The notes beneath the pieces are model-generated. The model searched no databases and was not told the DNA's origin. It saw nothing but the letters and a program-made list of their open reading frames with translations. 43,354 bases of DNA from Chloroflexota bacterium. Lineage in GTDB: Bacteria > Chloroflexota > UBA6077 > FW602-bin22 > JAMCWG01. Location: positions 1 to 43,354 of the forward strand of contig JAMCWG010000065.1 in the NCBI GenBank assembly GCA_023475235.1, in the 5' to 3' direction. Every line of letters starts with the position of its first letter. Positions within the stretch are counted from its first letter, which is position 1. This document shows, one piece after another, positions 1,320-41,960 of this stretch. The position numbers and the translations under genes were made by a program.

Positions 1320-1562
1320 TAGAGTGGCTCCCTGCGGCGCGGCGCACCGGCCGCGGTTGGTCTTGATCGAAGGACCGGTGCTAGCCGCAGACTTTCAGTC
1401 GTTGGCGATGGCGAACGTGGTGCCTGTCACGGCAGCGGCCGGAGCAGGTGCGTGTGGTCGCACATTTGAGGTTATTTTGGTCTCTTCTTTCCATCGGCCC
1501 ATATATTCTAACCGATGCGCCGCGATATGTATAGTGCTGGGGCAGCGGCATTCCCGCACACG

Positions 1563-5271: not shown

Positions 5272-5935
5272 TATCAAGGCCGGTGTCGAGCTGCTGCTGA
5301 CGTCGCGGGTCCCGCGGCCCCTGCAGCAAGAGATACTCCAGATCATCTCCACCGAGAACGTCCGGTTGATGGACTTCGTCGAGCGGATGCTCGACGCGAG
5401 TGCGCTGGAAGCAGGTAAGATGGTCTTCGATAGAAGGCCGCTCAGCTTGCTGCCACTCATCAAGAGCAAGGTCAAGTTCTTTGCCAGCAGGTCGAGTGTG
5501 CACTACTTCCAGGTGCGCGTGCCGGCCAGCCTGCCTCTTGCGTTCGGCGACGAGAACAAGACGGGGGTCATCATTAACAACCTTCTGGAGAATGCCATCA
5601 AGTATTCGCCGGAGGGCGGGAACATAACGATTGAGGTCGATAGGTCCAGACAGGATGGATACCTGGAGGTCAGCATCAGCGATGAAGGCATCGGCATACC
5701 GGCCGAGTACAGAGAGGAGGTCTTTGAGCGCTTCTTCCGCCTCAACGCGGGAGCCGGCTGGAAGACCGATGGACAGGGTCTGGGCCTATATATCACCAAA
5801 GCCCTCGTCGAGGGGCAAAACGGCCGCATTTGGGTGGCAGACCGGCCGGGCAAAGGCGCATGTTTCACGTTTACGATCCCTCAGCTAACGGAGGAGGTGG
5901 ACAGTGAAGTCGAGCGGGAATATGGAAGTAAGTGA
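5222..5935 (+). CDS. Histidine kinase C-terminal part (HisKA + HATPase_c) in the +1 frame relative to the upstream ORF
   Basis: Frame opened at 5222 reads TEFVRLVSHEIRSPLTNIKAGVELLLTSRVPRPLQQEILQIISTENVRLMDFVERMLDASALEAGKMVF (H-box), then INNLLENAIKYSPEGG (N-box), ISDEGIGIP (G1), GQGLGLYITKALVEGQNGRIWV (G2). Confidence 0.85.
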   Translation, partial: TEFVRLVSHEIRSPLTNIKAGVELLLTSRVPRPLQQEILQIISTENVRLMDFVERMLDASALEAGKMVFDRRPLSLLPLIKSKVKFFASRSSVHYFQVRVPASLPLAFGDENKTGVIINNLLENAIKYSPEGGNITIEVDRSRQDGYLEVSISDEGIGIPAEYREEVFERFFRLNAGAGWKTDGQGLGLYITKALVEGQNGRIWVADRPGKGACFTFTIPQLTEEVDSEVEREYGSK

Positions 5936-6620
5936 CCGCACAATACTCGTCGTTGACGACGATGCCACGCTGGTCAAGATACTTCTGGTTGCCCTGCGGG
6001 CTCAGGGCTATCAGGCGATCGGGGCAAGCAGTGGGAAAGAGGCCCTGCAACGGGTGTACGAGTACCGCCCGGACCTCATAATCCTGGATGTGATGATGCC
6101 AGAGATGAATGGCTTCGACATCTGCCGGCGCATCCGGGACCTGTCCAACGTGCCAATATTGATGTTAACCGCCAGAACGCGCGAGGATGATATAGTCAAG
6201 GGACTGGACTCGGGCGCAGACGACTATGTGACCAAGCCATTTGCCATCAAGGCTTTGCTGGCCCGCGTGCAGGCTTTGTTGCGCCGGGCGGAGCTTCCGG
6301 CATACAGCAACGGCAGGTTGACCACCAAGCTGATGTGCGGCGATCTCGAGATGGACCTGGTGTATCGAAAGGTGACCATCGGCGACAAGCCCGTTAAGCT
6401 GACCCCCACAGAATTTCGCCTGCTTACCTGCCTCCTGCAACGGCCAGGCGAAACGGTGAGCCGGCGAGAGCTGCTGACGCGAGTGTGGGGGCCCGAATAC
6501 GCCGACGAGACCCAGTACCTCAAGCTGTACATCGGCTACCTGCGCCGGAAGATAGAGGCGAATCCGCAGCGGCCAGTGCACATTCTCTCGGAACGAGGGG
6601 TTGGCTACTACGTAACGTAA
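5904..6620 (+). CDS. OmpR/PhoB-family response regulator
   Basis: Receiver ILVVDDDATLV, PDLIILDVMMPEMNGFDICRRIR, SGADDYVTKPFAIKALLARV; winged helix PVKLTPTEFRLLTCLLQRPGETVSRRELLTRVWGPEY...LRRKIEANPQRPVHILSERGVGYYV. GTG start overlaps the kinase 3' end. Confidence 0.95.
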   Translation: MKSSGNMEVSDRTILVVDDDATLVKILLVALRAQGYQAIGASSGKEALQRVYEYRPDLIILDVMMPEMNGFDICRRIRDLSNVPILMLTARTREDDIVKGLDSGADDYVTKPFAIKALLARVQALLRRAELPAYSNGRLTTKLMCGDLEMDLVYRKVTIGDKPVKLTPTEFRLLTCLLQRPGETVSRRELLTRVWGPEYADETQYLKLYIGYLRRKIEANPQRPVHILSERGVGYYVT

Positions 6621-6635
6621 GCGCGAGGATGTGAG

Positions 6636-7466
6636 ATGCAGAGATGCGCCTTGGTAATCAATGCCCGCAATGATAGCGATGATGGGCCTGTGAGCAGGGT
6701 GGTCGAAGCGGGCCTGGCGCAGGCAAGATACAAGCTGGTTGCTTCGCGGAATGGCGAGACGAACGCCCATTTGCTGCTCTCAGCCCAGCCCGACCTGGTC
6801 GTCCTTGAGGTGTTCCGGCCCGATGCGAATTCCCGGCGCATTTGCCAGTCCATCCGGAGGGTATCGAACGTGCCCATCCTGGTGTTGGGGTCGATCCTCG
6901 ATGCCAAAGGAGTAGTGCAAGCTCTGCGAATGGGAGCCGACAACTATGTGGCCGGCTGTTTCTCGGCCAGGGAGCTGGGGGCTCGCGTTAAGGCGATTGC
7001 CCGGCGAGCCGCACTGCCTTCAGCAGGGAGCAGGAAAGGGCGGCCGACCGGAGCGGGCCTGGAGCTGAGCCGGACACATTGCGAGGCATGGGTAGGAGGG
7101 AAGAAGGTCAAGCTCACACTCAGGGAGCACAGGCTGCTCGCCTGTCTGCTGACGAGCGGCGGCGCGGCCGTTTCGCACCAGACGTTATTGAGGGAGACTT
7201 TCGGGCCGGAGTACGGGAACGATATCAATTACCTCCGGCTGTACATTCGCCGTCTGCGTCGCAAGCTGGAGGAGGACCCCAGCCATCCATGCTTCATCCT
7301 CTCCGAATGGGGCGTCGGATACCGCGTGGTCTGCGCTGCCCCTCTCGGGTCGCTCTCTTCGGGATCTGAGGATCTTCCCGACCCCTCGCCTCATCCTGTC
7401 CGTGCCTACTCGGCCGGCAGCACCGGTTCGGGCCCCAATAGCAGGGTATCCCTGCCCTCGAATTGA
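6636..7466 (+). CDS. Atypical OmpR-family regulator with degenerate (pseudo-)receiver domain
   Basis: Winged helix KVKLTLREHRLLACLLTSGGAAVSHQTLLRETFGPEYGNDINYLRLYIRRLRRKLEEDP...GVGYRV parallels the upstream regulator; receiver has PDLVVLEVFRPD and DNYVAGCFSARELGARV in place of the catalytic Asp and Lys motifs. Confidence 0.88.
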   Translation: MQRCALVINARNDSDDGPVSRVVEAGLAQARYKLVASRNGETNAHLLLSAQPDLVVLEVFRPDANSRRICQSIRRVSNVPILVLGSILDAKGVVQALRMGADNYVAGCFSARELGARVKAIARRAALPSAGSRKGRPTGAGLELSRTHCEAWVGGKKVKLTLREHRLLACLLTSGGAAVSHQTLLRETFGPEYGNDINYLRLYIRRLRRKLEEDPSHPCFILSEWGVGYRVVCAAPLGSLSSGSEDLPDPSPHPVRAYSAGSTGSGPNSRVSLPSN

Positions 7467-7942
7467 CAGCCGTTGGCGAGCGTGCCGCCGACGAAAACCC
7501 TCGCCGCCGTTCTTCCCTCAAGCAATCTGATGACTTCGTCTTGCCTGAATGTCACGTGCAGCTCTGACGCGCTGTAGCCCCCGTGGCGCTGGAGTCGCAC
7601 GGAGCTGAGATCGGGCTTGACGCCTGGCGTTCCCCCCTCCACGTATAGTTGTAAGGTCGATGGGTCGATGTTCTCGATGTCGTAGCCCGTAGGCAGGCTT
7701 GGCGCAAACCGAATGCGGGCGGTGATGGACGGCCTCCCGCCGGCCGGGTCCAGCGTGCGGACGTCGAATCTCAGAGTGGCGGAGAGAGGGCACAGCGGCG
7801 CCGAGCTTGCCATGTCGTCTAGCTTGAGCCTGTCCAGCCAGAGGCCGGAGATGATGAGCACCTCCATCACGGTGATCACGATGATGGCGATGATGCCCGA
7901 ATTGGCAGGCAGCCGGCGCGGCAGCGAGGAAATGTATCGCAT
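7406..7942 (-). CDS. Hypothetical secreted/anchored protein with N-terminal TM segment
   Basis: MRYISSLPRRLPANSGIIAIIVITVMEVLIISGLWLDRLKL signal-anchor-like N-terminus; adjacent and co-directional with a SipW-like signal peptidase. Confidence 0.7.
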   Translation of the reverse strand: MRYISSLPRRLPANSGIIAIIVITVMEVLIISGLWLDRLKLDDMASSAPLCPLSATLRFDVRTLDPAGGRPSITARIRFAPSLPTGYDIENIDPSTLQLYVEGGTPGVKPDLSSVRLQRHGGYSASELHVTFRQDEVIRLLEGRTAARVFVGGTLANGCQFEGRDTLLLGPEPVLPAE

Positions 7943-7972
7943 CGCAGGTAAGACCCGATCCTTCGGTGTCCG

Positions 7973-8590
7973 CTAAGACAGGCGGTCGATGAGATGCTTT
8001 ATGCCGATGACGATCCATCCGATCTTCGGCAACAGCAGCACTACTTTGCCTTCGAGCTGGCTTTCGTCCACCGGTTCGTCCAGCACGTCGTTGTTATCGC
8101 CCTGCATGGTGAAGGTGTATCTGCCTCCGCGTGGCTCCACTTCGACCACGCGGTGCACGATGGACACCCTGTCCACCCTGAACCTGACGACGTCGCCCAC
8201 CCTTATGTCGCCGGCAGGCACCTGCCGGGTCAAGATAATGTCGCCGGCCCACATGCCGGGCTGCATGCTGACGCCGGTGACGAGGGCAGGGCGGATGCCG
8301 AGGGGCCCGACGCCGATCAAGATGAAAGAAGCAATAAGCGAGATGGCGATGATCCAGCCAAGGGCCGGCCGGGCTGTCCTTTTCCCAGCCGACGCGACCC
8401 ACGGCGCCAGCAGCCTACGCGCTATCAGGGCGCCCAGCGCCGGAGCGAGCGCGCCCAGGAGGGTGGTGAGCATCCATTCGGGATTCGGCAGCACGGAAGA
8501 GAGCAAACCAGGAGCCGCCAAGGTCCCCTGGTGTGCTGTAAGTGGCAACAGCCCACCAGCAGCTACCGAACAATGCATCACCGTTGACAC
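7973..8590 (-). CDS. Signal peptidase I, SipW/ER-type (Ser/His)
   Basis: TGVSMQPGMWAGDIILTRQVPAGDIRVGDVVRFRVDRVSIVHRVVEVEPRGGRYTFTMQGDNND: catalytic Ser box and His (IVHRV) box typical of S26B-like enzymes; flanking hydrophobic helices. Confidence 0.88.
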   Translation of the reverse strand: MSTVMHCSVAAGGLLPLTAHQGTLAAPGLLSSVLPNPEWMLTTLLGALAPALGALIARRLLAPWVASAGKRTARPALGWIIAISLIASFILIGVGPLGIRPALVTGVSMQPGMWAGDIILTRQVPAGDIRVGDVVRFRVDRVSIVHRVVEVEPRGGRYTFTMQGDNNDVLDEPVDESQLEGKVVLLLPKIGWIVIGIKHLIDRLS

Positions 8591-9108
8591 ACCTTTATGC
8601 TCGGCAGGCTCGCTACCCCGGGTTTCAGAAAAAGGAGAGGCTTTGTCACCCCTCCCTTGCTCGTTGCGTGTAATGCATGGCTCGGATTAGAGCCGTCGCC
8701 CGATGGGCGGCAGCCAAAGGCTGACTTTCCAGGGAAGGCACGGCCACGTTGCTGGTTGTCCTGAGCCCGGATGAAGGGCGCTCTCAGGACTCATCCGCCT
8801 GTACGGTGAGAGTGAACGGGCTATGGACCCTTCGAGCGGTCGGTGCGAGCAAAGAAGAGCGGGGGAGCCGGGAGGGGAGAAACCTGGACAAGCAGAATTC
8901 GATGAAGGCTGCGGCGTCCTTGCCAATCTGCTTCCCGCGCTCCTGCCTCCCCCAAAATCTCTTCCTCCCTGTAAGCGTACTACGGAATAGGTATGTAAGT
9001 CAGGTAACAAAGGATAGAGAATGGTTAGAGAATCGCCTGGCTGGCGCCCCGACGACAACGCACCCAACGTCCATAATCGAAAAGAGCCTGGACGCGCTCG
9101 AGGGCCTC

Positions 9109-14734: not shown

Positions 14735-15964
14735 CTACTTCAAGGCCGCGGCCTTAGGAGAAAGGCTGATCGGTCCCATCGGCACCAGGTTGACGACCGG
14801 GCTCTTGTGGCGGGCGGCGATGGCGGCGACTGCCTCATCGATGTTCTTGAAGAACGGGAAGTCCGCAGGGATCTTCATCCGCACTTCCGCCTCGCTCAGG
14901 TTAGGGGAGCAGACCGCACCGTACCGTCCGGCGCCGACGCGGCGGCGAATCTCGTTGATCGCGTCCGGGTTCTCGAAGCGGTGCCTGTCGCCCAGACGGT
15001 GCCAGCCCACGCCGTCCACGGCAGCCGATACGAACAGGATGCTGCCGTCCGGCTTGACGGTGCTGCCGATAAGGCCGGGGGACAGCGCCTTCATCGATTC
15101 TCCGAACTCCCGGTCCATCGGATAGCCGCTGATGATGGCGGCGTCGGCGTTGGTAGCACAGGGCACAGCATACAGCTTGCGGGCCAGCTCCACGCCCTTG
15201 CGGTGGGCAGCCACCAGGTCGCCCACGAACAGGCCGGCCACTCGCCGCTTGCCGTTGATCACGGCGTTGATGATGACGTCGAGCTTGGCCATCCGGGCGA
15301 TCTCCTCGATGTCCAGGCGGAAGCCGTTGTCCTCCAGCCCTCCGATGCAGCACTTCGGTCCGCGGTTGTGGGCATGGTGGTAGTCGATGGTAGCCATGCT
15401 GCAGACGCCCGGCAGGATGAGCTTGCCGCCGCCGCCAAAGCCGGCCGAGCCGTGGGGAATGATGCCGCCGGCGGCGATGCGCAGGTCGGCCTCCACCACG
15501 TCCCTGTTCACCGAGACGGGGGTGCCGCGGCTGGTATGGCCCAGATGCACCAGGTTCTCGTAGATGCTGTGGTTGATGGTCCGGCAGCGTCCCACGGCCT
15601 CGTCGCCGATCTTCTGGCGAAAGTCCGGGCCGGAGAAGACCCGGTGGCAACCGACCCCAGCGACGAAGGTGATCCCCGAATCCGGGATACCACCCTTGTT
15701 GAGCTCTTCGAGGATCAGGTGCGCGTATAGGTACGTGGGGGTGGGCCGGCCGTTGTCATCGATGATGATGACGGCGGTCTTCTTGCCCCTGGCCAGCTCC
15801 TCGATAGTTGGTGTGCCAATGGGGTTGGCGAAAGCCGCTCGCATCTGGGCCTCGGTCAGGTCCGGGGTATCGGGCAGGGCAGACCAGGTCACCTGCCAGT
15901 CGTCGGGCACCCGCACGTCCAGGAACTTGTCATCAGCGCCGAACGGGAACTTGTAGGTTTGCAC
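14735..15964 (-). CDS. LarA/DUF2088-family (nickel-dependent lactate racemase-like) protein
   Basis: From GTG at 15964 (SD aggagga at 15971-15977): VQTYKFPFGADDKFLDVRVPDDW ... FVAGVGCHRVFSGPDFRQKIG ... GSAGFGGGGKLILPGVCSMATIDYHHAHN. The ORF-track upstream extension is probably untranslated. Confidence 0.85.
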   Translation of the reverse strand: MQTYKFPFGADDKFLDVRVPDDWQVTWSALPDTPDLTEAQMRAAFANPIGTPTIEELARGKKTAVIIIDDNGRPTPTYLYAHLILEELNKGGIPDSGITFVAGVGCHRVFSGPDFRQKIGDEAVGRCRTINHSIYENLVHLGHTSRGTPVSVNRDVVEADLRIAAGGIIPHGSAGFGGGGKLILPGVCSMATIDYHHAHNRGPKCCIGGLEDNGFRLDIEEIARMAKLDVIINAVINGKRRVAGLFVGDLVAAHRKGVELARKLYAVPCATNADAAIISGYPMDREFGESMKALSPGLIGSTVKPDGSILFVSAAVDGVGWHRLGDRHRFENPDAINEIRRRVGAGRYGAVCSPNLSEAEVRMKIPADFPFFKNIDEAVAAIAARHKSPVVNLVPMGPISLSPKAAALK

Positions 15965-16061
15965 TTCTACTCCTCCTAAAAACTCTACAAGGGACAGCCT
16001 GGTTGCCGGCAGGCTTTGTCTGTAGGCCACACTTCGGAGCCGCGGCTGCCTCAGTGCGCTG

Positions 16062-16123
16062 AGTTTAACGCAACCTTCCAAGGGGGTCAATATGTTGACG
16101 ACTGGCCTGTCTTGGGCTATATT
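16062..16123. promoter_or_regulatory. Divergent back-to-back sigma70-like promoters (LarA-like gene - / VOC gene +)
   Basis: Plus: TTGACG 16095-16100, 17 nt, TATATT 16118-16123. Minus: TTGACC (16085-16090) with TAAACT about 17 nt away. Confidence 0.5.
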
Positions 16124-16215
16124 TGCCCAAAATGTTGCCTCTGTGCGGTGCCAGGTTCGGGCGATGGTTTCGCGTATGTCTGGCGCTCTGGAGCTCGGGG
16201 CAGGAGGAGTGTCCG

Positions 16216-16641
16216 ATGTTTGCATTCGTGCACCATGTTGCCGTCGTGGTCCCTAACATCAACGAGGCCATCGACCTGTTCCAGAACCGCTTCCGACTTA
16301 AGCTGCTGCGTCGAGAGACCATCGCCTCCTCGAATATGGAGCTGGCCATTTTCGCCGCCGGCGCTACCCACGTCGAAGTGATGCAGCCCATCAAGCCGGA
16401 GGGCAGCCTGCAGGCATTCCTCGACAAGAACGGGCCCGGCATCCAGCACGTGTCCTTCGCCGTGCACGACCTCGACGGCGAGGCGCCAGGCTTGCTGGCC
16501 ACGGGGCTGCGGTTCAGCCAGGGAGAGAAGGCCACCGTCACCTCGGTGGGGTGGAAGAACCTATCGGTCGTGCCTGGGTCGGCATACGGTATCAGCGGCC
16601 TGGAGATGACCGAGCCAGCGCTCGACAAGCGGCCGACCTAG
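16216..16641 (+). CDS. VOC-superfamily protein (methylmalonyl-CoA epimerase/glyoxalase-like)
   Basis: MFAFVHHVAVVVPNINEAIDLFQNRFRLKLLRRE ... GPGIQHVSFAVHDLDGE; SD aggaggag upstream of ATG 16216. Confidence 0.85.
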   Translation: MFAFVHHVAVVVPNINEAIDLFQNRFRLKLLRRETIASSNMELAIFAAGATHVEVMQPIKPEGSLQAFLDKNGPGIQHVSFAVHDLDGEAPGLLATGLRFSQGEKATVTSVGWKNLSVVPGSAYGISGLEMTEPALDKRPT

Positions 16642-20000: not shown

Positions 20001-20029
20001 TTGTCGCCAAAACGCGTCGCGCGTATAAT
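20001..20029 (+). promoter_or_regulatory. Putative sigma70 promoter TTGTCG-17-TATAAT
   Basis: TTGTCG 20001-20006, TATAAT 20024-20029, SD ggagg and GTG/ATG start 20061/20067 shortly downstream. Confidence 0.6.
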
Positions 20030-20066
20030 AAGGGCGTTAACCACTATCGCCTGGAGGTATGTGCAT

Positions 20067-21986
20067 ATGCCGTACGCCTACAACGGAAAGATATTGAAGG
20101 TGGACCTCTCCACCGGGAAGACGTCGGTAGACGAATTCGATGAGAACTGGTACCGCACCTACTGGGGAGGCTCCTGCCTGGGCGCCTGGTATATGCTGAA
20201 CGAGCAGCGCCCCGGCGTTGATCCCTTCAGCCCGGAGAACCTGCTGATCTTCGCCACCGGCGTGCCCACCGGCATACCGGCGCCGGGCTTCGCTCGCCAC
20301 TCCATCATCACCAAGTCCGCTGCCTCCAACGCCATCGCCGACACCGAGGCGGGCGGCTTCTTCGGCCCCGAGCTGAAGTTCGCCGGTTACGATGCTGTGG
20401 TAATCAAAGGCAAGGCAGAGAAGCCGGTGTACCTGTGGATTAACGACGGGAAGGTCGAGATACGCGATGCTGGGGCTCTCTGGGGCAAGTCCACCGGCGA
20501 GGCGCAGGCCCTCATCCGGGAGGAGCTCGGCGACAGGCGCATCCGCGTCGCGGGCATCGGGCCGGCGGGCGAGAACCTGGTGCGCTTCGCCTGTGTCATC
20601 AACGAGCTGAAGCACGCCAACGGCCGCACCGGCACCGGTGCCATCATGGGCTCCAAGAACCTCAAGGCCATCGCCGCCCGCGGACACAACCAGCCGCCCA
20701 CGGCCGATGGGAAGACCATACGCGACCTGGCCAAGTGGTTCGCCGATCACTGCATGGAGAACCCGGCCAACCGCGGCCTGCGCATCTATGGCACCGGCGA
20801 GATACTGGCCCCCTATTCGAAGGACGGCCTGCTCCCGACGCGCAACTTCCAGACCAGCACCTTCGAGCACGCCGAGGAAATCTCCGCCGAGAAGATGAAC
20901 GAGACCATCCTGGTGGAGGGCGAGGGCTGCTACGCCTGCGCCGTCCGGTGCAAGCGGGTGGTCAAAGCGGACGAGCCGTTCCAGGTCGACCCAGCCTACG
21001 GCGGGCCGGAGTACGAGACGATGGCCGCCTTCGGCTCAAACTGCGGCGTGTCCGACCTGGTGGCCGTGTCCAAGGCCAACGAGCTCAGCAACAAGTACTC
21101 CCTGGACACCATTTCCACCGGCTCGGCCATCGCCTTCGCCATGGAGTGCTACGAGAACGGCATCCTCTCGCAGCAGGACTGCAACGGTCTCGATCTCCGC
21201 TTCGGCAATGGCGCGGCGATGGTCCAGATGGTGGAGGATATCGCTCACCGGCGCGGCCTGGGCGACGTGCTGGCCGAGGGCGTGAAGCGGGCCGCCGAGA
21301 AGATCGGCCGCGGCGCGGAGAAGTTTGCCATCCACTGGCGAGGCGTCGAGGTGCCGATGCACGAGCCGCGGGTGAAGGGAATGCTGGGCATCTCCTACGC
21401 GACCGCCCCCATCGGCGCCGACCACGTCGTGGTGGAGCACGACACCGACTTCGACTTCAACGCTCCGCAGGTGTTCATGGACCAGGCCCGGTCCCTCGGC
21501 ATCCTGTGCCGCCTGCCCACCCACACCATCGACGAAGACAAGCTGCGGATGTACTACTACCTGGAGCAGCACTTCTCCTTCATCGATACGCTGGACATCT
21601 GCGTGTTCACCCTGGCGCCCGTGCGCGCCTACACGATGGACCAGGTGGTCGACCTGGTATCGGCGGCGACCGGCTGGGAGTGCAGCCTGCACGAGATAAT
21701 GAAGGCCGGCGAGCGGCGGGTGAATATGTTCCAGGCCTTCAACATCCGCGAGGGCTTCCGGGGCAAAGACGACTGGCTGCCCCAGCGCTTCTTCGAGCCC
21801 ATCCCGAATGGGCCGCGCGCCGGCTACAAGGTGGACCCGGAGCAGTTCCGAAAGGCGCTGCGGCTATACCGGCGGATGCACAACTGGGACCCGGAGACAG
21901 CCATCCCCTACCGGGCCAAGCTGGTGGAGCTGGACCTGGCCTGGGTGGCCGACGAGTTGGCGAAGTACACGGAGGTGCCGGAGTAG
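20067..21986 (+). CDS. Aldehyde:ferredoxin oxidoreductase (tungsten AOR family)
   Basis: MPYAYNGKILKVDLSTGKTSVDEFDENWYRTYWGGSCLGAWYMLNE ... GRTGTGAIMGSKNLKAIAARG ... GCYACAVRCKRVV (Fe-S Cys motif) ... GLGDVLAEGVKRAAEKIG. Confidence 0.94.
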   Translation: MPYAYNGKILKVDLSTGKTSVDEFDENWYRTYWGGSCLGAWYMLNEQRPGVDPFSPENLLIFATGVPTGIPAPGFARHSIITKSAASNAIADTEAGGFFGPELKFAGYDAVVIKGKAEKPVYLWINDGKVEIRDAGALWGKSTGEAQALIREELGDRRIRVAGIGPAGENLVRFACVINELKHANGRTGTGAIMGSKNLKAIAARGHNQPPTADGKTIRDLAKWFADHCMENPANRGLRIYGTGEILAPYSKDGLLPTRNFQTSTFEHAEEISAEKMNETILVEGEGCYACAVRCKRVVKADEPFQVDPAYGGPEYETMAAFGSNCGVSDLVAVSKANELSNKYSLDTISTGSAIAFAMECYENGILSQQDCNGLDLRFGNGAAMVQMVEDIAHRRGLGDVLAEGVKRAAEKIGRGAEKFAIHWRGVEVPMHEPRVKGMLGISYATAPIGADHVVVEHDTDFDFNAPQVFMDQARSLGILCRLPTHTIDEDKLRMYYYLEQHFSFIDTLDICVFTLAPVRAYTMDQVVDLVSAATGWECSLHEIMKAGERRVNMFQAFNIREGFRGKDDWLPQRFFEPIPNGPRAGYKVDPEQFRKALRLYRRMHNWDPETAIPYRAKLVELDLAWVADELAKYTEVPE

Positions 21987-22297: not shown

Positions 22298-23515
22298 TCA
22301 GATAGCTCCATCGGACCGAAGCTCTTGTATCTGGGCCTCAGTCATCCCAAGGATGATAGCCAGAATCTCGTCCGTGTGCTCCCCGAGCAGCGGGGGAGGA
22401 GTATAGGTCGGGTTGGGATAGGTGGACATCTTGATCGGACTTCCGACGAGCTTGACCCGACCTGCCACAGGATGCTCGATCGCTATCAGCATCTGCCGTG
22501 CTTTCACGTGAGGGCATTCGACAACCTCGGCCAGTGTCTGGACCGGACCGGCAGGGACATTGTGCCCCAAGAGTACCTCAGTCACCTCCTGCTTGGTCTT
22601 GTCGGCAGCCCAGCCCTCGATGATGGGCCGCAGTACCGTCTCCAGGTTGCGGCCGCGGTCGGTGCCGTGCTCCAGCCCCGGGTAGTCCACGAGTTCCGGC
22701 TTGCCGATGGCGTCACAGAACCGACGCCACAGCGGCTCCGAAAAAGCCGAAATGGCCACATAGCCGTCTTTCACCCTGAACAAGCCGTTGGGGGCCGAGC
22801 CTCCCTGGCCCCGGGCTGGTATGTTTCCAGTGACGATGTAACTCGTCATTTGGGTGGTCATCATCGATACCATCGCATCGTACATCGACACATCGATCCG
22901 CTGGCCCAACTGTGTATGCTGTCGTTGATAGAGGGCAATGAGGATGCCCACCACGGCCAAGGTGCCGGGGAAGATGTCGCCGATGGAGGCTTGAGCGGTG
23001 ACGGGCGGGCCATCCTCTTCGCCCGTACCGTCGGCCAGACCACTCATCGCCTGCACAATGTAATTGAACGCAGGCCGATTCCAGAACGGGCTGGGCAGAA
23101 TGTCCAGGTGACCGAACCCGCTGACGGAGGCGTAGATAATAGCTGGATTGACCTGCTTCAAAACGGCATAATCGAGGCCCAGTTCCAGCATCGTTGGCGG
23201 GGCAAAGTTCTCCAGGACCACGTCGGACACCTTAACCAATTTTAGGAAGATCTCCTTCCCTCTTTCGGACTTTAGGTCCAGGGTCATAGCCTTCCGGTTG
23301 CGACAGTAGGCCAGAGCAGCGGCGGTGATGCTCTGGCCCTTCTCGTTTGTTATCCTGGTCCCTACTCCGCGGCTAATCTCGCCCGTGCCGGGCCGCTCGA
23401 TCTTGATGACCTCGGCGCCCGCATCGGCCAGCAACATAGCGGCACACGGCCCCGCCACCATCTGGGTCAAGTCAAGGACGCGAATGCCAGACAGAGGGCT
23501 ATTATTAGTAACCAT
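22298..23515 (-). CDS. Class III CoA-transferase (CaiB/BaiF family)
   Basis: PLSGIRVLDLTQMVAGPCAAMLLADAGAEVIKIERPGTGEISR ... RNRKAMTLDLKSERGKEIFLKLVKVSDVVLENFAP. Confidence 0.94.
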   Translation of the reverse strand: MVTNNSPLSGIRVLDLTQMVAGPCAAMLLADAGAEVIKIERPGTGEISRGVGTRITNEKGQSITAAALAYCRNRKAMTLDLKSERGKEIFLKLVKVSDVVLENFAPPTMLELGLDYAVLKQVNPAIIYASVSGFGHLDILPSPFWNRPAFNYIVQAMSGLADGTGEEDGPPVTAQASIGDIFPGTLAVVGILIALYQRQHTQLGQRIDVSMYDAMVSMMTTQMTSYIVTGNIPARGQGGSAPNGLFRVKDGYVAISAFSEPLWRRFCDAIGKPELVDYPGLEHGTDRGRNLETVLRPIIEGWAADKTKQEVTEVLLGHNVPAGPVQTLAEVVECPHVKARQMLIAIEHPVAGRVKLVGSPIKMSTYPNPTYTPPPLLGEHTDEILAIILGMTEAQIQELRSDGAI

Positions 23516-23523
23516 TGGGCACA

Positions 23524-24630
23524 CTACTCTTCGGGGCGCATCGGGCTGCGGATGGGCTCCCTCCAGGGGCGGATACAGCCCTCGTACACGTCCTGGCCCA
23601 GCTTGAAGTGTTTCGCCTGCTCCTGGGTCTCGATGAAGGGCAGGTCCATAGGGTACCATCGGTCCCTGGTCATCGGCCGCGGCCCGGCCTTGGAGACGTG
23701 GCCGGGGGTCGGGCGACCGATTATCTCCTCCAGGAGCCACACGCAGTCGATGAGCTTGTCCATATCCACACCCGTGTCGATGCCCATACCCTCTAGCATA
23801 TGCAGAAGATCCTCCGTGGGGGCCATCCCGGCGGCCCGACCATTGCCGCAGTAGGGGCAGCCGCCGATGCCGCCAATGGTCCCCTCCAAGAGGAGGGTGT
23901 CCTCTGGCCCCAGCACCCGCAGGGCCGCGTAGATGTTCGTGAGGGCCAGGCCACGGGCGTCGTGCAGATGGAGGTGGAAGTACCTGATATCGGGCCACTT
24001 CTCCTTGATGGCCGTCAGGGTCTCCTCTACCCGGTTGGGGGTTGCCCAACTCATCGGGTCGGCTGCCCCGAAGCGGGTGACCGCGATGCCGGCCTCGTCC
24101 CACACTCGGTGTTCCTGCTCCAGGGCGCCCATTTGGTCCGCAAGGCTGAACTCGCCCAGCCAGTTGGAGCCCCAGGCCGCACCGAGAAATATGCCGGCCT
24201 CGGCAGCTCCCTTCCCCTTCGCGCGGGCCACCGTCGCCGGCCAGGCGGCGATGAGCTGTTCCTGGCTTCGATTAATGTTGCGCCGGGCAAAGACGTCGCA
24301 CAGCCAGTACCGCATCGTGGGAATTTCCTCTTTGATGGTCAGGGGAGGGCAGTACTGCCTGGCGCGCTCCAAGCCCCGCTCATTCATCGTCAGGGCGACA
24401 TACTTCACCCCTGGCTTGGGCACGAACCGCTGCATCAGCTCGTCTATGCAGGCCATCTGCGGCGTCCACTTAGGACTCACAAAGGACCCCACCTCGATGT
24501 AGTTCAGGCCTGTCTCTCCGACCGCGTCCAGCAGCCGCAGCTTGTCGTCCACCGATATGCTGGCATCCTCGATCTGCAATCCATCGCGCATAACTTGTTC
24601 GAGGTACTCGATCTTCGGATATCTGCCCAT
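23524..24630 (-). CDS. Hydroxymethylglutaryl-CoA lyase-like (DRE-TIM) enzyme
   Basis: MGRYPKIEYLEQVMRDGLQIEDASISVDDKLRLLDAVGETGLNYIEVGSFVSPKWTPQMAC ... HLHLHDARGLALTNIYAALRVLG ... EGTIGGIGGCPYCGNGRAAGMAPTEDLLHMLEGMGIDTGVD. Confidence 0.92.
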   Translation of the reverse strand: MGRYPKIEYLEQVMRDGLQIEDASISVDDKLRLLDAVGETGLNYIEVGSFVSPKWTPQMACIDELMQRFVPKPGVKYVALTMNERGLERARQYCPPLTIKEEIPTMRYWLCDVFARRNINRSQEQLIAAWPATVARAKGKGAAEAGIFLGAAWGSNWLGEFSLADQMGALEQEHRVWDEAGIAVTRFGAADPMSWATPNRVEETLTAIKEKWPDIRYFHLHLHDARGLALTNIYAALRVLGPEDTLLLEGTIGGIGGCPYCGNGRAAGMAPTEDLLHMLEGMGIDTGVDMDKLIDCVWLLEEIIGRPTPGHVSKAGPRPMTRDRWYPMDLPFIETQEQAKHFKLGQDVYEGCIRPWREPIRSPMRPEE

Positions 24631-24650: not shown

Positions 24651-26960
24651 TCAGCACAGGCTGTGCCGCACGCGGGCGATGTGGTTGTCCTGGTGCTCGC
24701 GGGTCAGGGCGGTGAAGTAGGCCTGCCAGCCACCCATCCGCACCCGCAGCCCGCGGTACTTCTCTGGCTCCGCCTGCGCCTTGAGCAGTGTCTCCACATC
24801 AGTGACCGTGATGGTCAGCATCGAGCCACCCATCTCCACAAAGCTGCGGACGAAGGCCATCAGGCGTTGAAGGCCCGCCTCGTCTCCGATACCGCTCGGG
24901 CTCATGCCCAGGTCCAGCGGCCCGCCGATAGGCAGCTCGCTGAAGTCAACCGTTGTGTAGGAGCGTACCGCGGCGGTCGGCCCCTCCAGGTCCCGTCCCG
25001 GCGCGGGAGTGAGGCCAGCGGTGATAGCTTCTCGATACGCTCGGCCATCTGGAGTAGCACCAACAATCTTGCCGAATGCCATATACGTCCCACCGATGGC
25101 GCCAGTGCCGGGGGGAAACTTGAACTGAGGATGCTTGCCGCCGTGCTTTCGCACGCTCTCCACGAAGAAGTGGGCTATCTCTCTGGCCAGCTCATCTACA
25201 TAGTCAATGCCGTTGCCGAACTTCGGACTGTGGGTGAGCAGAAGCTGGCGCAGGGGCTCCTGGTCGGCGTAATTGGATGCCACGGCGTCTGCTAGTTGGG
25301 CCATCGTCATCTGGCGCTCTTCGAAAATCAGCTTCTTGATGGCCGCCAGAGCATCTGCCGTGTGGGGTACGCCTGCCACGACCGGCGCGTAGAACATGTA
25401 CCGTGCGCCGCCCTCGGTCAGGTCCTTGCTCTGCTCAAGGCAGCCCTCGATCAGACAGGAAAGCAGCGGCTCGGGGGCGATGCTGTAGCGCGCGTCCCAG
25501 TATTCGGCGAAGTTATCGATGAAGCGACAAGTCTGGTAGTCTAGCTGCGCTTTGAATGCATCCATAAGCTCGTCGAACGATCGGAAAGCGGCGACGTCGC
25601 CCGTGTCCAAGCCTTCCTTCCGATCGCTGACCCGGCTCCGACCGCGCGTGAAGACGAGTTCAAGGGCCAGCAACGCATGGACCGGCCCCCAGCGGAAATC
25701 GGTCTTGCCCGGTATCAGTGTCTCCCAGCAGCCGTCGTGGCTGTACCCGTTCGCCTCCTCGAGGGGGAAGCCGAATTTCACTAGGGCATCGATGATCATC
25801 CGGTCGTTGTGTAGGGCCGGCATGCCGCCCCCGCCGCGAATGACCTCGCAGCATTTCCGCAGCAGCGCGTCGGGGAAATGGCGCGAAAGGCGCACGGATA
25901 CGGTCGGCTCGTGTACCTCGAAGTGCCCTGTGGACTCCAGGCAGAGGTAGGTCAGATCGTTCGTGGAGTCTTTGCCGTCGGGGCTCAAGCCGCTCAGGAT
26001 CAGGTTCTGCAACCAGTGGTTGTCGAAGGCCGAGTCCGAGTTGCCGCCCTGGGGGCCATCTTCGGGGTCGCGCCCGACGCCGGCCTTAAGGGGGGCTCGG
26101 TGGTACTCCCGATGTTCCTCCTTTATCTGTACTCGCTCGCTGAACTTGATCCAGAGGCAGTCCACAAGTTCCTGAGCATCGTCCAGGGTGGTGTCGCCGG
26201 CATCGAGGTCCCGCTTGAGGAAGGGGTACATGTAGTAGTCGAAGCGGCCAACCGGGGCGACGGTGAGCGTGCCGTTCAGGGAGGCGAACATGAACCAGAA
26301 GCTTTGCAGTGCCTCGCGGAAGGAACGCGGTGGATACTCGGGCACGTGCTGGCAGACGTTGGCAATCCCCAGCAGCTCTGCCCGCCGCTGCTGGTCCTCC
26401 TCCTGAGCGGCCATCGCGGTCGCCAAGTCAGCGTAGCGGTGGGCCAGGGCGATCACAGCGTCCATAGAGATCGTTGTCGCCTGGAGGAAGTTGCGCTGCC
26501 TTTCCGCAGCCGGGTCGCCGTCTGTGGTGGCGCTCAGCTTTGCCGCCACCTTCTGCTTTATTCCGTCCAGCCCCAGCTCCAGAACCTCGGCATAGTTCGG
26601 CACGGAGTGACCGTAGACAGAGTAAATGCTCAGGGACTTCTTCGCGGCCTCGCTTCGCTCACTCTCGGTGGCGTATTGCGGAAACACGAAGCCGGTCCCC
26701 AGGGAGCCCATCGGCATAGTGCCGACAACAAGCTCCTCCGGCTTAATCTCGACAGGCATCTCGGTGAGGACCTTCTCGATCGCCTTCGCCTTGCGCACGA
26801 TCAACGGCAGCGCAGCGACCTCCGGGTCGTCGAGGATGGTGAGTCCATCGCCCCACCATTCCCTTTTTGAGAGCATACCTTCCCACAGTCTGGCATAGAG
26901 CCGGGCTACGCGGTTGGTGTGCCTGGCTTCGGTCTTGGGTGGAACTGCGGTCTGAGCCAT
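24651..26960 (-). CDS. Glycyl radical enzyme (pyruvate formate-lyase-like superfamily), substrate unknown
   Basis: Active-site Cys motif NGYSHDGCWETLIPGKT; C-terminal glycyl-loop RGLRVRMGGWQAYFTALTREHQDNHIARVRHSL; PFL-like N-terminus. ATG at 26960 or 26966 after aaaaggagg. Confidence 0.9.
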   Translation of the reverse strand: MAQTAVPPKTEARHTNRVARLYARLWEGMLSKREWWGDGLTILDDPEVAALPLIVRKAKAIEKVLTEMPVEIKPEELVVGTMPMGSLGTGFVFPQYATESERSEAAKKSLSIYSVYGHSVPNYAEVLELGLDGIKQKVAAKLSATTDGDPAAERQRNFLQATTISMDAVIALAHRYADLATAMAAQEEDQQRRAELLGIANVCQHVPEYPPRSFREALQSFWFMFASLNGTLTVAPVGRFDYYMYPFLKRDLDAGDTTLDDAQELVDCLWIKFSERVQIKEEHREYHRAPLKAGVGRDPEDGPQGGNSDSAFDNHWLQNLILSGLSPDGKDSTNDLTYLCLESTGHFEVHEPTVSVRLSRHFPDALLRKCCEVIRGGGGMPALHNDRMIIDALVKFGFPLEEANGYSHDGCWETLIPGKTDFRWGPVHALLALELVFTRGRSRVSDRKEGLDTGDVAAFRSFDELMDAFKAQLDYQTCRFIDNFAEYWDARYSIAPEPLLSCLIEGCLEQSKDLTEGGARYMFYAPVVAGVPHTADALAAIKKLIFEERQMTMAQLADAVASNYADQEPLRQLLLTHSPKFGNGIDYVDELAREIAHFFVESVRKHGGKHPQFKFPPGTGAIGGTYMAFGKIVGATPDGRAYREAITAGLTPAPGRDLEGPTAAVRSYTTVDFSELPIGGPLDLGMSPSGIGDEAGLQRLMAFVRSFVEMGGSMLTITVTDVETLLKAQAEPEKYRGLRVRMGGWQAYFTALTREHQDNHIARVRHSLC

Positions 26961-27115
26961 GCCCATTGCCTCCTTTTCCCCAGCCTTTGGCTAAGGCGGC
27001 CGTTCCAGCGGGGAGAATGAGTATGTTGAGTTCCGGGGCACCCTCCGATTCTACCATCGACGCGATCGACGCTGCCGGAGGGCGCCACTTTCGAGGTGCC
27101 TACGTATTGATTGTA

Positions 27116-28780
27116 CTACTTATCCAGCCAGATACTGGTCAGATCCGCGTAGGAGAACTTTACCTGGACGCCCTGGACCTCCTTGCGGAACACCACCAGG
27201 GTGTCCGCGCGGTTGAGGCCGGCGATCTGGTCGTCTTCCTGCACGATCTGCTGGCACTTCCTGTAGGTCTCGTTCCGCTTGGCCGGGTCCATCTCCCGTT
27301 CGCCGTCGGCGAAGCACTTGTCGACGTCGGCATTGTTGTAGTTGATCAGTTGAGCGGAGCCATCGCTGACGAACATCCGGCTGGCATATGCTGGGTCCGG
27401 CGACGGGCTGTTATCCCACTGGTGCATATCGAAGTTGCCGGCCTTCATCTTCTGGCGAGCGGCGACAACTTCCAGGGCCTCCAGTGTAACCCTGATGCCG
27501 GCCTTCAGCCACATGCCCTGCAGCAGCTCGGCCTGCTTACGCTTGGTAGTGTTGTTATCGTGGGTCAGCAAGATATCGACGCCGTTAGGGAAACCGGCCT
27601 CTTTGACCAGGGCAGCGGCCTTTTCGGGATCGAACTTATAGACCGGGCCGAGGTTCTGGTCGTAGCCCGGCCAGTTGGTCGGCCAGCCCTGTATCCAGTC
27701 CGGGGTACCGGCTTCCAGATTCATCACCTTCGTGTAATTCTCCCGGTCGGTGGCGTACTGGGCCGCCTGACGGAGCTTGGCATTCTTGCCCCACGGTTCC
27801 TTCCACTGATTGAAGCCGTAGTAGCCGCGCAGAGGCGCCCACTTCATTTGGACAATGACCAGGTCGGAGTTCTGCCGCAAGGTGGGCAGATCGGCCGGTT
27901 TGGGCGCATGGGTCAGGTGCAGCGTGCCGGCCCGCAGTTCGGTGAACTGCACGGCCAGGTCGTTCATTGTGCGGATCTTGATGCCATCCAGGTAGGGGAG
28001 AGGCTGGCCGTCAGCGCCCTTCCCCCAGTAATTCTCGTTCTTCACTGTAGTGGCCACATCGCCCTGCTTGTAGTCAGTCAGCTTGAACGGGCCGGTGCCG
28101 GAGGCCTTGCCGTTGCCGAAAGCATCCTCCCCCACATTGTCCATCTGGGCTTTCGAGAGAATGACAGGGCCGACGGAGCCGGTGCCCCCCGTTCCTGAGC
28201 TCAAGTTGAAGAGGTGCAGGGCGGACGGCTGCTTGTAGATGATCTTCAGAGTGTAAGGATCGACCACTTCGAGTTTGTCGAAGTTCTGGCCATGGCGCTT
28301 GGCGAAGGACTTAGTGGCCGTGGCCATCCGCTCCAGGCTCCACTTGGCGACGCTCGCGTCGAAGTCGGAGCCGTCGTGGAACTTCACACCCTTGCGCAGC
28401 TTCAGCACGAGGGTCGTAGGGTTCTGCTGCTCCCAGGACTCGGCCAGCACCCCAACGAACTTGAAATTGCCGTCTTTCAGGTCGGCGGAAAGGTACTCAA
28501 CTAGAGTTTCGTAGACCCCCATCTGGCCGGTAACCGTGGACACTGTGTCGTAGATTGGGTCCATAGTGGCAGGTACTGCATTGGCGGTTACCAGGGTGCC
28601 GCCGCGCTTGATCTTGGCGGCGGTGGCGGGGGCAGCCGCAGGAGCGGCTGGCTTGTCCGCTGCCGTGGGGGCGGCAGTCGGCTTGGCGGGCGCCGCGGTC
28701 GGCATCGCTGGGGCGCAGGCGGCGATCACGACCAGAATGAGGACAACGATGACGATATTGGATCTCCCTAGCAGTCTCAA
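27116..28780 (-). CDS. ABC transporter substrate-binding lipoprotein, family 5
   Basis: Lipobox VVIAACAPA, Ala/Pro/Thr linker, KIKRGGTLVTANAVPATMDPIYDTVS, LAESWEQQNPTTLVLKLRKGVKFHDGSDFDASVAKWSLERM; TTG start. Confidence 0.92.
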   Translation of the reverse strand: MRLLGRSNIVIVVLILVVIAACAPAMPTAAPAKPTAAPTAADKPAAPAAAPATAAKIKRGGTLVTANAVPATMDPIYDTVSTVTGQMGVYETLVEYLSADLKDGNFKFVGVLAESWEQQNPTTLVLKLRKGVKFHDGSDFDASVAKWSLERMATATKSFAKRHGQNFDKLEVVDPYTLKIIYKQPSALHLFNLSSGTGGTGSVGPVILSKAQMDNVGEDAFGNGKASGTGPFKLTDYKQGDVATTVKNENYWGKGADGQPLPYLDGIKIRTMNDLAVQFTELRAGTLHLTHAPKPADLPTLRQNSDLVIVQMKWAPLRGYYGFNQWKEPWGKNAKLRQAAQYATDRENYTKVMNLEAGTPDWIQGWPTNWPGYDQNLGPVYKFDPEKAAALVKEAGFPNGVDILLTHDNNTTKRKQAELLQGMWLKAGIRVTLEALEVVAARQKMKAGNFDMHQWDNSPSPDPAYASRMFVSDGSAQLINYNNADVDKCFADGEREMDPAKRNETYRKCQQIVQEDDQIAGLNRADTLVVFRKEVQGVQVKFSYADLTSIWLDK

Positions 28781-28944: not shown

Positions 28945-28980
28945 GAAAGGTAGTATCATACCGAAAGGTAGCATGATACT
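28945..28980. promoter_or_regulatory. Candidate operator: perfect inverted repeat plus overlapping direct repeats
   Basis: AGTATCAT (28952-28959) / ATGATACT (28973-28980), 13-nt spacer; direct repeat GAAAGGTAG at 28945-28953 and 28963-28971 (18-nt period). Confidence 0.5.
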
Positions 28981-29159
28981 AATCATGGAGAGCTTCGCTG
29001 TCAAGAGGGCGATCCGCCTCATAGTAAGTGTTACCGAAAGGGGTAAACTTGCTTCAGAATAACTGCTCTCTGATGGCCGTGGATGTGAGAACCATCTGGA
29101 TCGGCCTCAAACCAATCTGGGGCAAGGCTCAGGAGAAAGTGTACGGGGGCATGGAGAAC

Positions 29160-39259: not shown

Positions 39260-40174
39260 TCAGCCCACCAGCGCACTCAGGGTGATCCCTTGGGGTAGCC
39301 CTTCCTCACTCACGATCACTTTGTAGTCGGCAAAAGAGCGCGGGGTCGTTACGTCCATCCGGCGGGCAACTTGGACCAACTGGAAAAGCCGGTGGGCCGG
39401 AGCATTGCCCAGGCAGCTCTCGTGGCTGAACACATACAGTCCCTGGCAGGCCATCAGGCCGCGCGATGAGGAGCGGTCGGTATCCCACATCTTCTCCAGC
39501 GCCTGCCAGAAGAGCTCCAGGTCTTCCTCAACGACCCCGGTCCGCCGGGCAAAGTGCGGGTTGAAGAAGCCGTGCGCCCGGTAGAGGCCATAGGGGACCA
39601 GGGTCTTGTGACCCATCTCGGTCTGCTTACCGCCCTTCCCGTCGTTGCCGTTATCGGAGACCACTACTTTGACGTCTTCCTCACGCGTGACTGCCAGCCT
39701 GGTGATGGATAGGTCCAGCGGGGCGATGGGATCGATGGACCGGGCGAAGGTGATCTGGATGGGCCCGCGCACCTGGCCGCAGTTCACCCCCGTTGTCATT
39801 ACGGCGCCGAACATCTGGATGTCGTAGAAATTCCCGCACATCCAACTGCGAGTCTTGTCGACATCTTCCCTGGCCTGCTTGGTCCCGGTGGACGTCAACC
39901 CAAGGGCTTGATAGGCGCGCCCGTGGATGAAATTCAGTGCGTGGCCGCTCTGAACGTAGATCTTGAAGCGTCCCTCGTTCCCGCGGGCCAGGTCAACCCA
40001 GTCGCGTACCTTCCGTTTGATGGCGACGTCGGTGACCAGGCCCTGCATGGTCTCGGGGTCCACCCTGGGCAGGTTGCCAGCGTCGGGGTCGCCGTTAGGG
40101 TTGCCATCGGTGACGTCGAAGAGGAGCACAAAGTCGTGCCGGCGGGTGACGTCGAGGTAGGGAGGCTCGGCCAT
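39260..40174 (-). CDS. cas7c: Type I-C CRISPR backbone protein Cas7c (Csd2)
   Basis: RRHDFVLLFDVTDGNPNGDPDAGNLPRVDPETMQGLVTDVAIKRKVRDWVDLARG, FYDIQMFGAVMTTGVNCGQVRGPIQITFARSIDPI; ATG at 40174 is 1 nt after the cas8c stop. Confidence 0.95.
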   Translation of the reverse strand: MAEPPYLDVTRRHDFVLLFDVTDGNPNGDPDAGNLPRVDPETMQGLVTDVAIKRKVRDWVDLARGNEGRFKIYVQSGHALNFIHGRAYQALGLTSTGTKQAREDVDKTRSWMCGNFYDIQMFGAVMTTGVNCGQVRGPIQITFARSIDPIAPLDLSITRLAVTREEDVKVVVSDNGNDGKGGKQTEMGHKTLVPYGLYRAHGFFNPHFARRTGVVEEDLELFWQALEKMWDTDRSSSRGLMACQGLYVFSHESCLGNAPAHRLFQLVQVARRMDVTTPRSFADYKVIVSEEGLPQGITLSALVG

Positions 40175-40175
40175 C

Positions 40176-40637
40176 CTAGTTCTCCACGGCGTCTGCATCT
40201 ATCGGATCGTGATCACCAATCTCATCCGTGATGCCGCTGGCTTTCGTCGTTGGCGCAGGTGCGGTCTTATGATGCTCTCGGGCCTGGGCGCGGTCGAAGG
40301 CACGCTGGTGATAGTAGCCAAGGGCGAATACGCCCTGGTCCTCCAGGGTCAGGGTGCGGGGGAAAACCGCCAGGCCGGCCTGGATATCCTCCAGCCGGCG
40401 TTGCAGCCCATAGTATACGCCAGGCCGGTCGTGTTCCAGCTTGGTCAGATAAGGCTGGGCACCGCGCAACAGTCGTCCAAAGATCGTTGCCGGGGCCGAC
40501 GATGCTGTGCCGAAGAAACGGTCTACGACGGTGGCTCTAGTGCCGGGCGCGGCCAGGAGCTGCGCCCGCTCGATCACGGCGAGCAAGCGACCACAGCGAT
40601 AGGCAGGGCTCAAGTTTTCCGGGTCCAACTGTACCAT
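40176..40637 (-). CDS. cas11c: Cas11c small subunit from an internal in-frame start within cas8c (predicted)
   Basis: In-frame ATG at 40637 preceded by AAAGGAGGACAAG (SD AGGAGGA at 40642-40648): MVQLDPENLSPAYRCGRLLAVIERAQLLAAPGTRATVVDRFFGTASSAPATIFGRLLRGAQPYLTKL... Confidence 0.75.
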   Translation of the reverse strand: MVQLDPENLSPAYRCGRLLAVIERAQLLAAPGTRATVVDRFFGTASSAPATIFGRLLRGAQPYLTKLEHDRPGVYYGLQRRLEDIQAGLAVFPRTLTLEDQGVFALGYYHQRAFDRAQAREHHKTAPAPTTKASGITDEIGDHDPIDADAVEN

Positions 40638-41960
40638 CTTGTCCTCCTTTGAATTCGACTGCTGACTGCGCAGCACTAGTTTGATCAACGCCGCGCGTTC
40701 GCCGGGGAAGAACTGCCTCGTACCTTTCTCCCGGCCGGCCCGGTTGCGGCGGATAGCCTGGTAGAGCAGGCCCGTGGGAAGCGGCGAGCCGGTGAGGGCG
40801 GTTCGCCAGAGGGCCCGTAACAGGGGCTTGGGCAAGCCCCTGGCTGGGTCGCGCACCGTCGCCGCGGCGAGAGGATAGAGACCGAAGGGATGTGGCGGCT
40901 CACCAGACGGGCTTACGATGCGCTGCCCCTGGAACCAGTCCCTGAGATGGTCACGCACTTCGCCGACGGCGGTCTCGATCCAGTCGCACACGACCGCCCT
41001 TCCCCCGCTGCCCGAGAGGACGGTGGCATAGAACTTCGTGCTATCGGCCTCCGGTGGATGCCGGCCTGGGTCTGCTGCTCCAAGCAGTACCTCTACACGT
41101 TCAGGCTCCGGCCTGTCGAAGAAGTCGCGGAAAGAGAAGGGGACGGGCTCCTTCGTCCAGAAGACGAAAGCGAGGTCGCCCAGGACTATGTGGGTCGATT
41201 GGTCGGCCAGGAGCTCATTGGCAGCCCTGGTGAAGCTCTCGCCGCAGGCGGCGCACGTGGGCGCAACCAGCGATGCTTCCAGGCCGTACGACTCGAATGC
41301 CTCGGCATTTGCGGAGATGAGGGCCATCCCCGAAGTCTGGCCGCCGGGAATCCCTTTCACCCGCGCCTGCAGGCGTCCCAGGACGGGGCGCTCCCGCCCG
41401 CAGACCAGGCACTGCATTACCGGTGCCGGGTGGCGGGGGTCGGCGGCGGGATCGTTAACATCCGCCCAGAATCGCTGCACGCTGGGTAGATCGGTCGGGA
41501 AACAGCCGTCTACCCGGAAGGTGATATTGGCGCTGGGGTCGAAGTCGTCGGGCAGCGATAGCTGCGAAGTAGTATCGTGATGCAGGAATACGCACACCGC
41601 CTGCACGGCGGGCTCATGAGTGGCGTCAGCGCAGCGGTCCAGCAGGTCCAGGTACGCCTGATGGCAGGCGGCTACACGCTGCAAATTAGAATAGGGCCGC
41701 GGCAGCCCGAACGTGTAGTCGGCGTTGTCGGCCAGCAGCATCGGCCTGATGCCCGAAGAGCGCTGTACCTGGGGCATTGGCCGGCGCTGGCCCCGCCTGC
41801 TGCGCAGACCGGCGAGATTGGTGGTGTCGGTCAGCTCGTGCTTGAGCAGGCGGCCGCTCCCGTCCAGCTCAACTATGTACCGGACGGGTGCCTTGCTGTA
41901 GAGCGTCGGTAGGAGGGCCAACTGGTGGTCAGCGTATTCCTTCAAGCTCTGTAACAACAC
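40176..41960 (-). CDS. cas8c: Type I-C large subunit Cas8c (Csd1)
   Basis: MLLQSLKEYADHQLALLPTLYSKAPVRYIVELDGSGRLLKHELTD ... LLADNADYTFGL ... CLVCGRERPVLGRLQARVKGIPGGQTSGMALISANAEAFESYGLE; syntenic with cas5c and cas7c. Confidence 0.94.
   Translation of the reverse strand: MLLQSLKEYADHQLALLPTLYSKAPVRYIVELDGSGRLLKHELTDTTNLAGLRSRRGQRRPMPQVQRSSGIRPMLLADNADYTFGLPRPYSNLQRVAACHQAYLDLLDRCADATHEPAVQAVCVFLHHDTTSQLSLPDDFDPSANITFRVDGCFPTDLPSVQRFWADVNDPAADPRHPAPVMQCLVCGRERPVLGRLQARVKGIPGGQTSGMALISANAEAFESYGLEASLVAPTCAACGESFTRAANELLADQSTHIVLGDLAFVFWTKEPVPFSFRDFFDRPEPERVEVLLGAADPGRHPPEADSTKFYATVLSGSGGRAVVCDWIETAVGEVRDHLRDWFQGQRIVSPSGEPPHPFGLYPLAAATVRDPARGLPKPLLRALWRTALTGSPLPTGLLYQAIRRNRAGREKGTRQFFPGERAALIKLVLRSQQSNSKEDKMVQLDPENLSPAYRCGRLLAVIERAQLLAAPGTRATVVDRFFGTASSAPATIFGRLLRGAQPYLTKLEHDRPGVYYGLQRRLEDIQAGLAVFPRTLTLEDQGVFALGYYHQRAFDRAQAREHHKTAPAPTTKASGITDEIGDHDPIDADAVEN

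Follow-up and report, generated by a model that had tools for sequence, protein, structure and literature searches.

The 43,354-nucleotide stretch of Chloroflexota DNA analysed here (the window) encodes a protein that, judged by its sequence, is a genuine full-length homologue of the glycyl radical enzymes (GREs) and belongs to a new, small and so far unnamed GRE subfamily whose members all share the same loop change and which is referred to below as RMGGW after its radical loop. The reading that we favour, with a probability of about 0.72, is that this protein is an eliminase-type (CXE) GRE whose activase acts in trans or is encoded in the unassembled part of the genome, its gene forming one operon with those of an HMG-CoA-lyase-like enzyme and of a type III CoA-transferase. 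Among the reactions that GREs catalyze are some of the most difficult in anaerobic life, and a new branch of the family has often brought new reactions with it. In the RMGGW branch, the catalytic residues are kept and the radical loop is altered in a fixed way, the Chloroflexota members adjoin pathway genes untypical of known GREs, and the relatives include normal activase-linked GREs as well as GREs that, in aerobes, are coupled to a haem peroxidase.

The gene and its predicted catalytic positions, the latter assigned by alignment, are as follows.

24651..26966 (-), GRE homologue P0001 of the RMGGW subfamily, 771 aa (Pfam PFL-like and Gly_radical, PDB GRE matches, tree)
26607..26609 (-), His120, aligned with the His that neighbours the CXE Glu in HypD and glycerol/propanediol dehydratase
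25722..25730 (-), Cys413-Trp414-Glu415, CXE motif (the Cys predicted to form the thiyl radical, the Glu that of eliminases; aligned with solved and reference GREs)
24912..24914 (-), residue 685, Asp in every member of the RMGGW clade (Asp685) and Asn in most other GREs
24726..24740 (-), Arg743-Met744-Gly745-Gly746-Trp747, glycyl radical loop with Gly746 as the predicted radical site

An AAGGAGG ribosome-binding site directly precedes the ATG of the gene, and its product exceeds the Pfam cut-offs for both PFL-like (E=1.8e-148; PF02901, 496.5 bits) and Gly_radical (E=7.2e-15; PF01228, 55.9 bits) and matches solved GREs in the PDB down to E=1e-130 (phmmer). In the phmmer alignment to glycerol dehydratase (PDB 1r8w), DGCWET of the window protein is paired with IGCVEP and VRMGGWQAYF with VRVAGYSAQF, placing C413 at the position of the catalytic Cys and G746 at that of the radical Gly; both residues are invariant in alignment A2, and the eliminase motif CXE is present as C413-W414-E415. 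The initial annotation had quoted the same two motifs, which are found as given, and had named a displacement of the Cys and Gly from the catalytic positions as grounds against its GRE reading; in the alignment, both residues fall on these positions. A single-sequence structure prediction (pLDDT 37) was set aside.

The Trp that follows the radical Gly is less unusual than had been supposed: the published GRE fingerprint, RVXG[FWY], allows Trp there (PMC11528403), and among 60 distinct GRE C-termini, in which relatives of the window GRE are over-represented, 10 have Trp, 41 have Tyr and 7 have Phe. The idea of an unprecedented Trp at Gly+1 was accordingly rejected. The R, G and W of the window loop fit the fingerprint, with Met in place of Val. 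At Gly-2, the same set has Val in 49 cases, Met in 7, Ile in 3 and Leu in 1, and Met at this position is a rarer change than Trp at Gly+1. The real departures of the RMGGW GREs, as read from the alignments, are Met for Val, the partner motif C-[W/Y]-E and Asp685. Where Trp follows the radical Gly, 10 of 11 proteins have Trp or Tyr in the middle of CXE, as against 0 of 37 proteins where it does not (Fisher 1.7e-9, a value that overstates independence, the sequences being related and representing perhaps two or three lineages), a co-occurrence of aromatic residues on the Cys and Gly loops that suggests contact between them. The aminoacyl radical enzymes (AAREs), GRE homologues in which Ala, Ser or Thr replaces the radical Gly, likewise have radical loops that depart from the standard of the superfamily (PMC11528403), whereas the window GRE keeps this Gly and is changed at Gly-2 and Gly+1. 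Strongly altered loops with the Gly kept were also observed in two further GRE homologues, namely ARMYGQSLYL (L019:400-2934; G010:C7) and ARLYGWSQYV (L101; G209:C13).

A search with the DNA pattern for V-R-M-G-G-W-x-A-(Y/F)-F recovered five genes in 4 of 400 Chloroflexota genomes; GREs of any kind were present in 19 of 350. The four other proteins share 41-45% identity with the window protein, and all five carry RMGGW and C-W-E with no exception; the identity of the loop at this level of overall divergence argues that it is under selection. All five also have Asp where most GREs have Asn, together with a shorter N-terminal segment ahead of His120. The loop is found in addition in two plasmid-encoded GREs, from Hymenobacter and Asticcacaulis, and its known distribution comprises Chloroflexota genomes and plasmids; no RMGGW loop was found in the viral contigs searched, and a scan of genome contigs with the exact stretch MGGWQAYF and five other stretches of the window protein returned only one distant GRE. 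In a 25-row tree, the five Chloroflexota proteins form a clade with support of 100/100, with G001:C333 as its sister (98/97). In a 35-row tree, all seven RMGGW proteins, the two plasmid proteins included, form one clade (100/98), which grows to ten proteins once the nearest sisters join (99/97). Three features taken together appear to mark the subfamily: the RMGGW loop, C-[W/Y]-E on the Cys loop, and an Asp in place of Asn on the N-terminal side of the Gly loop. No literature on this branch was found in searches for links of GREs to Chloroflexota, to corrinoid clusters or to Dyp peroxidases.

The neighbouring features that bear on the pathway are listed below.

28951..29004 (-), candidate promoter TTGACA-17-TAGTAT, which overlaps with a 9+9 inverted repeat that may be an operator
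27116..28780 (-), peptide/nickel-type substrate-binding lipoprotein of an ABC transporter, encoded upstream of the GRE (NCBIfam matches)
23524..24630 (-), HMG-CoA-lyase-like enzyme, 368 aa (Pfam HMGL-like 8.4e-23; PDB HMG-CoA lyases 2e-37)
22298..23515 (-), type III (CaiB/BaiF) CoA-transferase, 405 aa (Pfam CoA_transf_3 1.5e-116)
20001..21986 (+), tungsten-type aldehyde:ferredoxin oxidoreductase (Pfam AFOR_N/AFOR_C; PDB 1aor 4.5e-131)

The lyase-like gene starts about 20 nt past the GRE stop with its own ribosome-binding site, and the CoA-transferase gene starts 8 nt past the lyase stop; this tight spacing and the ribosome-binding sites support the operon. The lipoprotein gene is separated from the GRE by a gap of 149 nt, and the candidate promoter is weak, promoter-like sites being no more numerous than in shuffled sequence. 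The lyase-like protein retains what we take, by eye, to be the GGxGGCP and HxH motifs, and the CoA-transferase, among whose PDB matches are formyl-CoA transferases and succinate-HMG CoA-transferase, presumably retains the Asp of its family. The aldehyde:ferredoxin oxidoreductase gene lies tail-to-tail with the operon, and its product is a possible pathway partner. Because the lyase and CoA-transferase pair also occurs without a GRE (L074), the tie of these two genes to the GRE is one of position, and the pair was dropped as a GRE-specific signature. In two sister loci (L045, L057), the neighbours are corrinoid methyl-transfer proteins instead, and the RMGGW branch may therefore not share one substrate. 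Elsewhere in the window, a LarA-like nickel-pincer racemase gene lies beside DUF362, VOC and DapA-type genes (14735-16225), and the CRISPR genes Cas7 and Csd1 (39260-41960) point to a type I-C system.

The CXE motif is a conserved mark of GRE eliminases, and in HypD (trans-4-hydroxy-L-proline dehydratase) both the Glu of CXE and a nearby His (His160) are needed, variants of either being inactive (PMC7077986). Because the window GRE has both the Glu and the His, as HypD does, it is placed as a probable eliminase, and each of its four residues Cys, Glu, His and Gly falls on its counterpart in eliminase GREs. In the proposed scheme, a radical-SAM activase would generate the radical on Gly746, from which it would move to Cys413; the resulting thiyl radical would abstract a hydrogen from the substrate, and Glu415 and His120 would deal with the substrate hydroxyl as the neighbouring bond breaks (1,2-elimination). 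The CoA-transferase may then activate the product, and the HMG-CoA-lyase-like enzyme would cleave it, an order of steps that we infer from the operon.

No radical-SAM activase is encoded in the window, as had been noted, and this extends to the whole of its contig (C16, 60,853 bases, i.e. 60.9 kb), on which the TIGR02494 profile found none. The search for activases elsewhere in the genome, which the initial annotation had proposed, identified two over the cut-off with this profile, one on C123 and one on C154, and each of these adjoins a GRE other than that of the window; the GRE fragment on C154 and a GRE cut short at the end of C147 could be two pieces of a single gene that the assembly broke apart. 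Apart from these two, no further activase was found in an assembly that is 75% complete, in which a missing activase is not proof of absence. An activase directly adjoins the GRE in three of the five Chloroflexota RMGGW members (G001:C225, G008:C8 and G328:C48), with which the window GRE is grouped in the 35-row tree (95/89). The absence of an activase, which had been taken as a sign of a divergent family, is thus not a family trait, and the proposition that RMGGW GREs lack activases was rejected on the same evidence. The three adjacent activases are 58-63% identical to one another, and the two of the window's genome share 37-47% identity with them, neither being orthologous. The activase of the window GRE would then be one of these two, acting in trans, or one encoded in the unassembled quarter of the genome. 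A dedicated activase is the rule for GREs (PMC8473560), and the lack of a matching one in the assembly counts against the favoured reading.

It is also conceivable, though quite unlikely, that the window protein is GRE-like and has lost its radical chemistry together with its activase. The lack of a matching activase would fit such a loss, as would the paralogue on C72 of the same genome, which has none on its 11.6-kb contig; against it, Cys, Glu, His and Gly are all retained, and the loop is invariant in those clade members that have an adjacent activase. A known GRE with a drifted loop, whether propanediol/glycerol dehydratase, HypD, CutC (choline trimethylamine-lyase), sulfopropanediol dehydratase or PflD/YbiW, is already disfavoured and equally improbable. 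In its favour, diol dehydratase is the best PDB match (440.7 bits, compared with 233.7 for MasD and 180.3 for TutD, so that X-succinate synthases such as BssA and MasD are not the closest solved relatives), and the GRE of a propanediol dehydratase locus is 36% identical. The window GRE shares with the B12-independent glycerol/propanediol dehydratases (1r8w, 5i2a), which are GRE eliminases, the fold family, Cys-X-Glu, the His before the barrel and the position of the radical Gly; it differs in having RMGGW, CWE and Asp685 where they have RVAGY, CVE and Asn, a shorter N-terminal segment before His120 and other substrate residues. Several of what we take to be the substrate residues of glycerol dehydratase (Asp447, Ser282 and Tyr339 in its own numbering) are not retained (phmmer, PDB), so that a dehydratase reading is not proven. 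HypD, whose known chemistry is activase-dependent (PMC7077986), has the CXE and nearby His in common with the window GRE, yet the two are 29-30% identical and the score is 401 of the 1100 bits needed (NCBIfam); CutC shares CXE and the GRE fold but is 30% identical, has Asp where the window GRE has His120, and scores 368 of 1050 bits. No curated NCBIfam GRE equivalog among those compared (HypD, CutC, sulfopropanediol dehydratases, PFL, and hydroxyphenylacetate and indoleacetate decarboxylases) fits the window GRE, all lying at or under 42% of the cut-off (best, 418.9 of 1000 bits), and with the other four Chloroflexota proteins, too, all equivalogs stay well short of their cut-offs. CutC, HypD, propanediol dehydratase, YbiW and PflD all fall outside the RMGGW clade (100/98). 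The differing active-site positions, the equivalog scores and the exclusion of these references speak against a known enzyme, and the latter two bear out the earlier proposal of a divergent GRE family.

A narrower version of the preferred eliminase reading, in which the GRE acts on a methylated or quaternary substrate and feeds corrinoid methyltransferases, is unlikely. It draws on an MtgC/MtbC-like corrinoid protein adjacent or near in both sister loci with corrinoid neighbours, one of which (L057) also has a URO-D-type methyltransferase, a homocysteine methyltransferase and DUF1638, and on a URO-D-type methyltransferase and an MtmB homologue in the window itself. These lie about 6 kb and about 16 kb from the window GRE, however, the latter at the right edge of the window; the operon of the window GRE has no genes of these kinds, and position 120 is not the Asp of CutC. 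In the L057 locus (559-8592; G328:C48), the RMGGW GRE and its activase are found near the DUF1638, URO-D-type methyltransferase, corrinoid protein and homocysteine methyltransferase genes. The MtmB (monomethylamine methyltransferase) homologue runs from window position 43058 through 43354 to C16 position 44698 (L058:59-1699) and contains a masked stretch. That a haem (Dyp-type) peroxidase, rather than a radical-SAM enzyme, can serve as activase for the RMGGW lineage is extremely improbable: a DyP and a GRE do share one chain in Asticcacaulis, a DyP gene does adjoin the Hymenobacter GRE, and no annotated activase is seen in either plasmid stretch shown, but three clade members have ordinary activases and no DyP gene was found in the genome of the window or those of its three relatives. 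Activation of the window enzyme by a DyP was rejected on the absence of a DyP from its genome.

The peroxidase-linked relatives themselves are encoded on plasmids.

L126:4636-8616, plasmid NZ_CP084912.1, DyP-GRE fusion of Asticcacaulis sp. AND118, annotated only as peroxidase
L066:4019-7358, plasmid NZ_CP095048.1, split RMGGW GRE of Hymenobacter cellulosilyticus, with separate genes for a Dyp-type peroxidase and a PLD-like protein after it

The Asticcacaulis protein (WP_226746392.1, 1326 aa) comprises Dyp_perox_C (206-377) followed by a GRE part (PFL-like, 575-1133) that has the Cys motif DGCYEP and ends in VRMGGWTEMF, and its gene adjoins DUF2278 and FGE-like genes. The Hymenobacter GRE has VRMGGWTEFF and DGCYET, with a frame change that splits the gene into two CDS. 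Asticcacaulis, Hymenobacter and Bradyrhizobium are genera generally regarded as aerobes, which raises the question of how a radical killed by oxygen could be made or kept there; the fusion offers a concrete protein for this question, and the unexpected DyP pairing in these relatives is the most novel lead and the one most worth specialist attention. No paper was found on a pairing of GRE and Dyp peroxidase. One speculative and very unlikely account is that the RMGGW radical site was rebuilt by the joint gain of aromatic residues on the Cys loop and the Gly loop, and that the DyP-fused member of the aerobe depends on peroxidase chemistry, not on a radical-SAM activase, to obtain or maintain its radical. 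As to the Chloroflexota, a haem-copper oxidase is present in the other three RMGGW genomes, and none was found in that of the window. A frame-shifted remnant of an RMGGW-type GRE C-terminus lies between a GMC oxidoreductase gene and a PLD-like gene on a Bradyrhizobium quebecense plasmid (NZ_CP088023.1; L130:6980-7160). Moraxella and Acinetobacter are likewise genera usually called aerobic, and plasmids of Moraxella osloensis and Acinetobacter towneri (L127, L128) carry a GRE with an activase near Tn3-family transposase genes.
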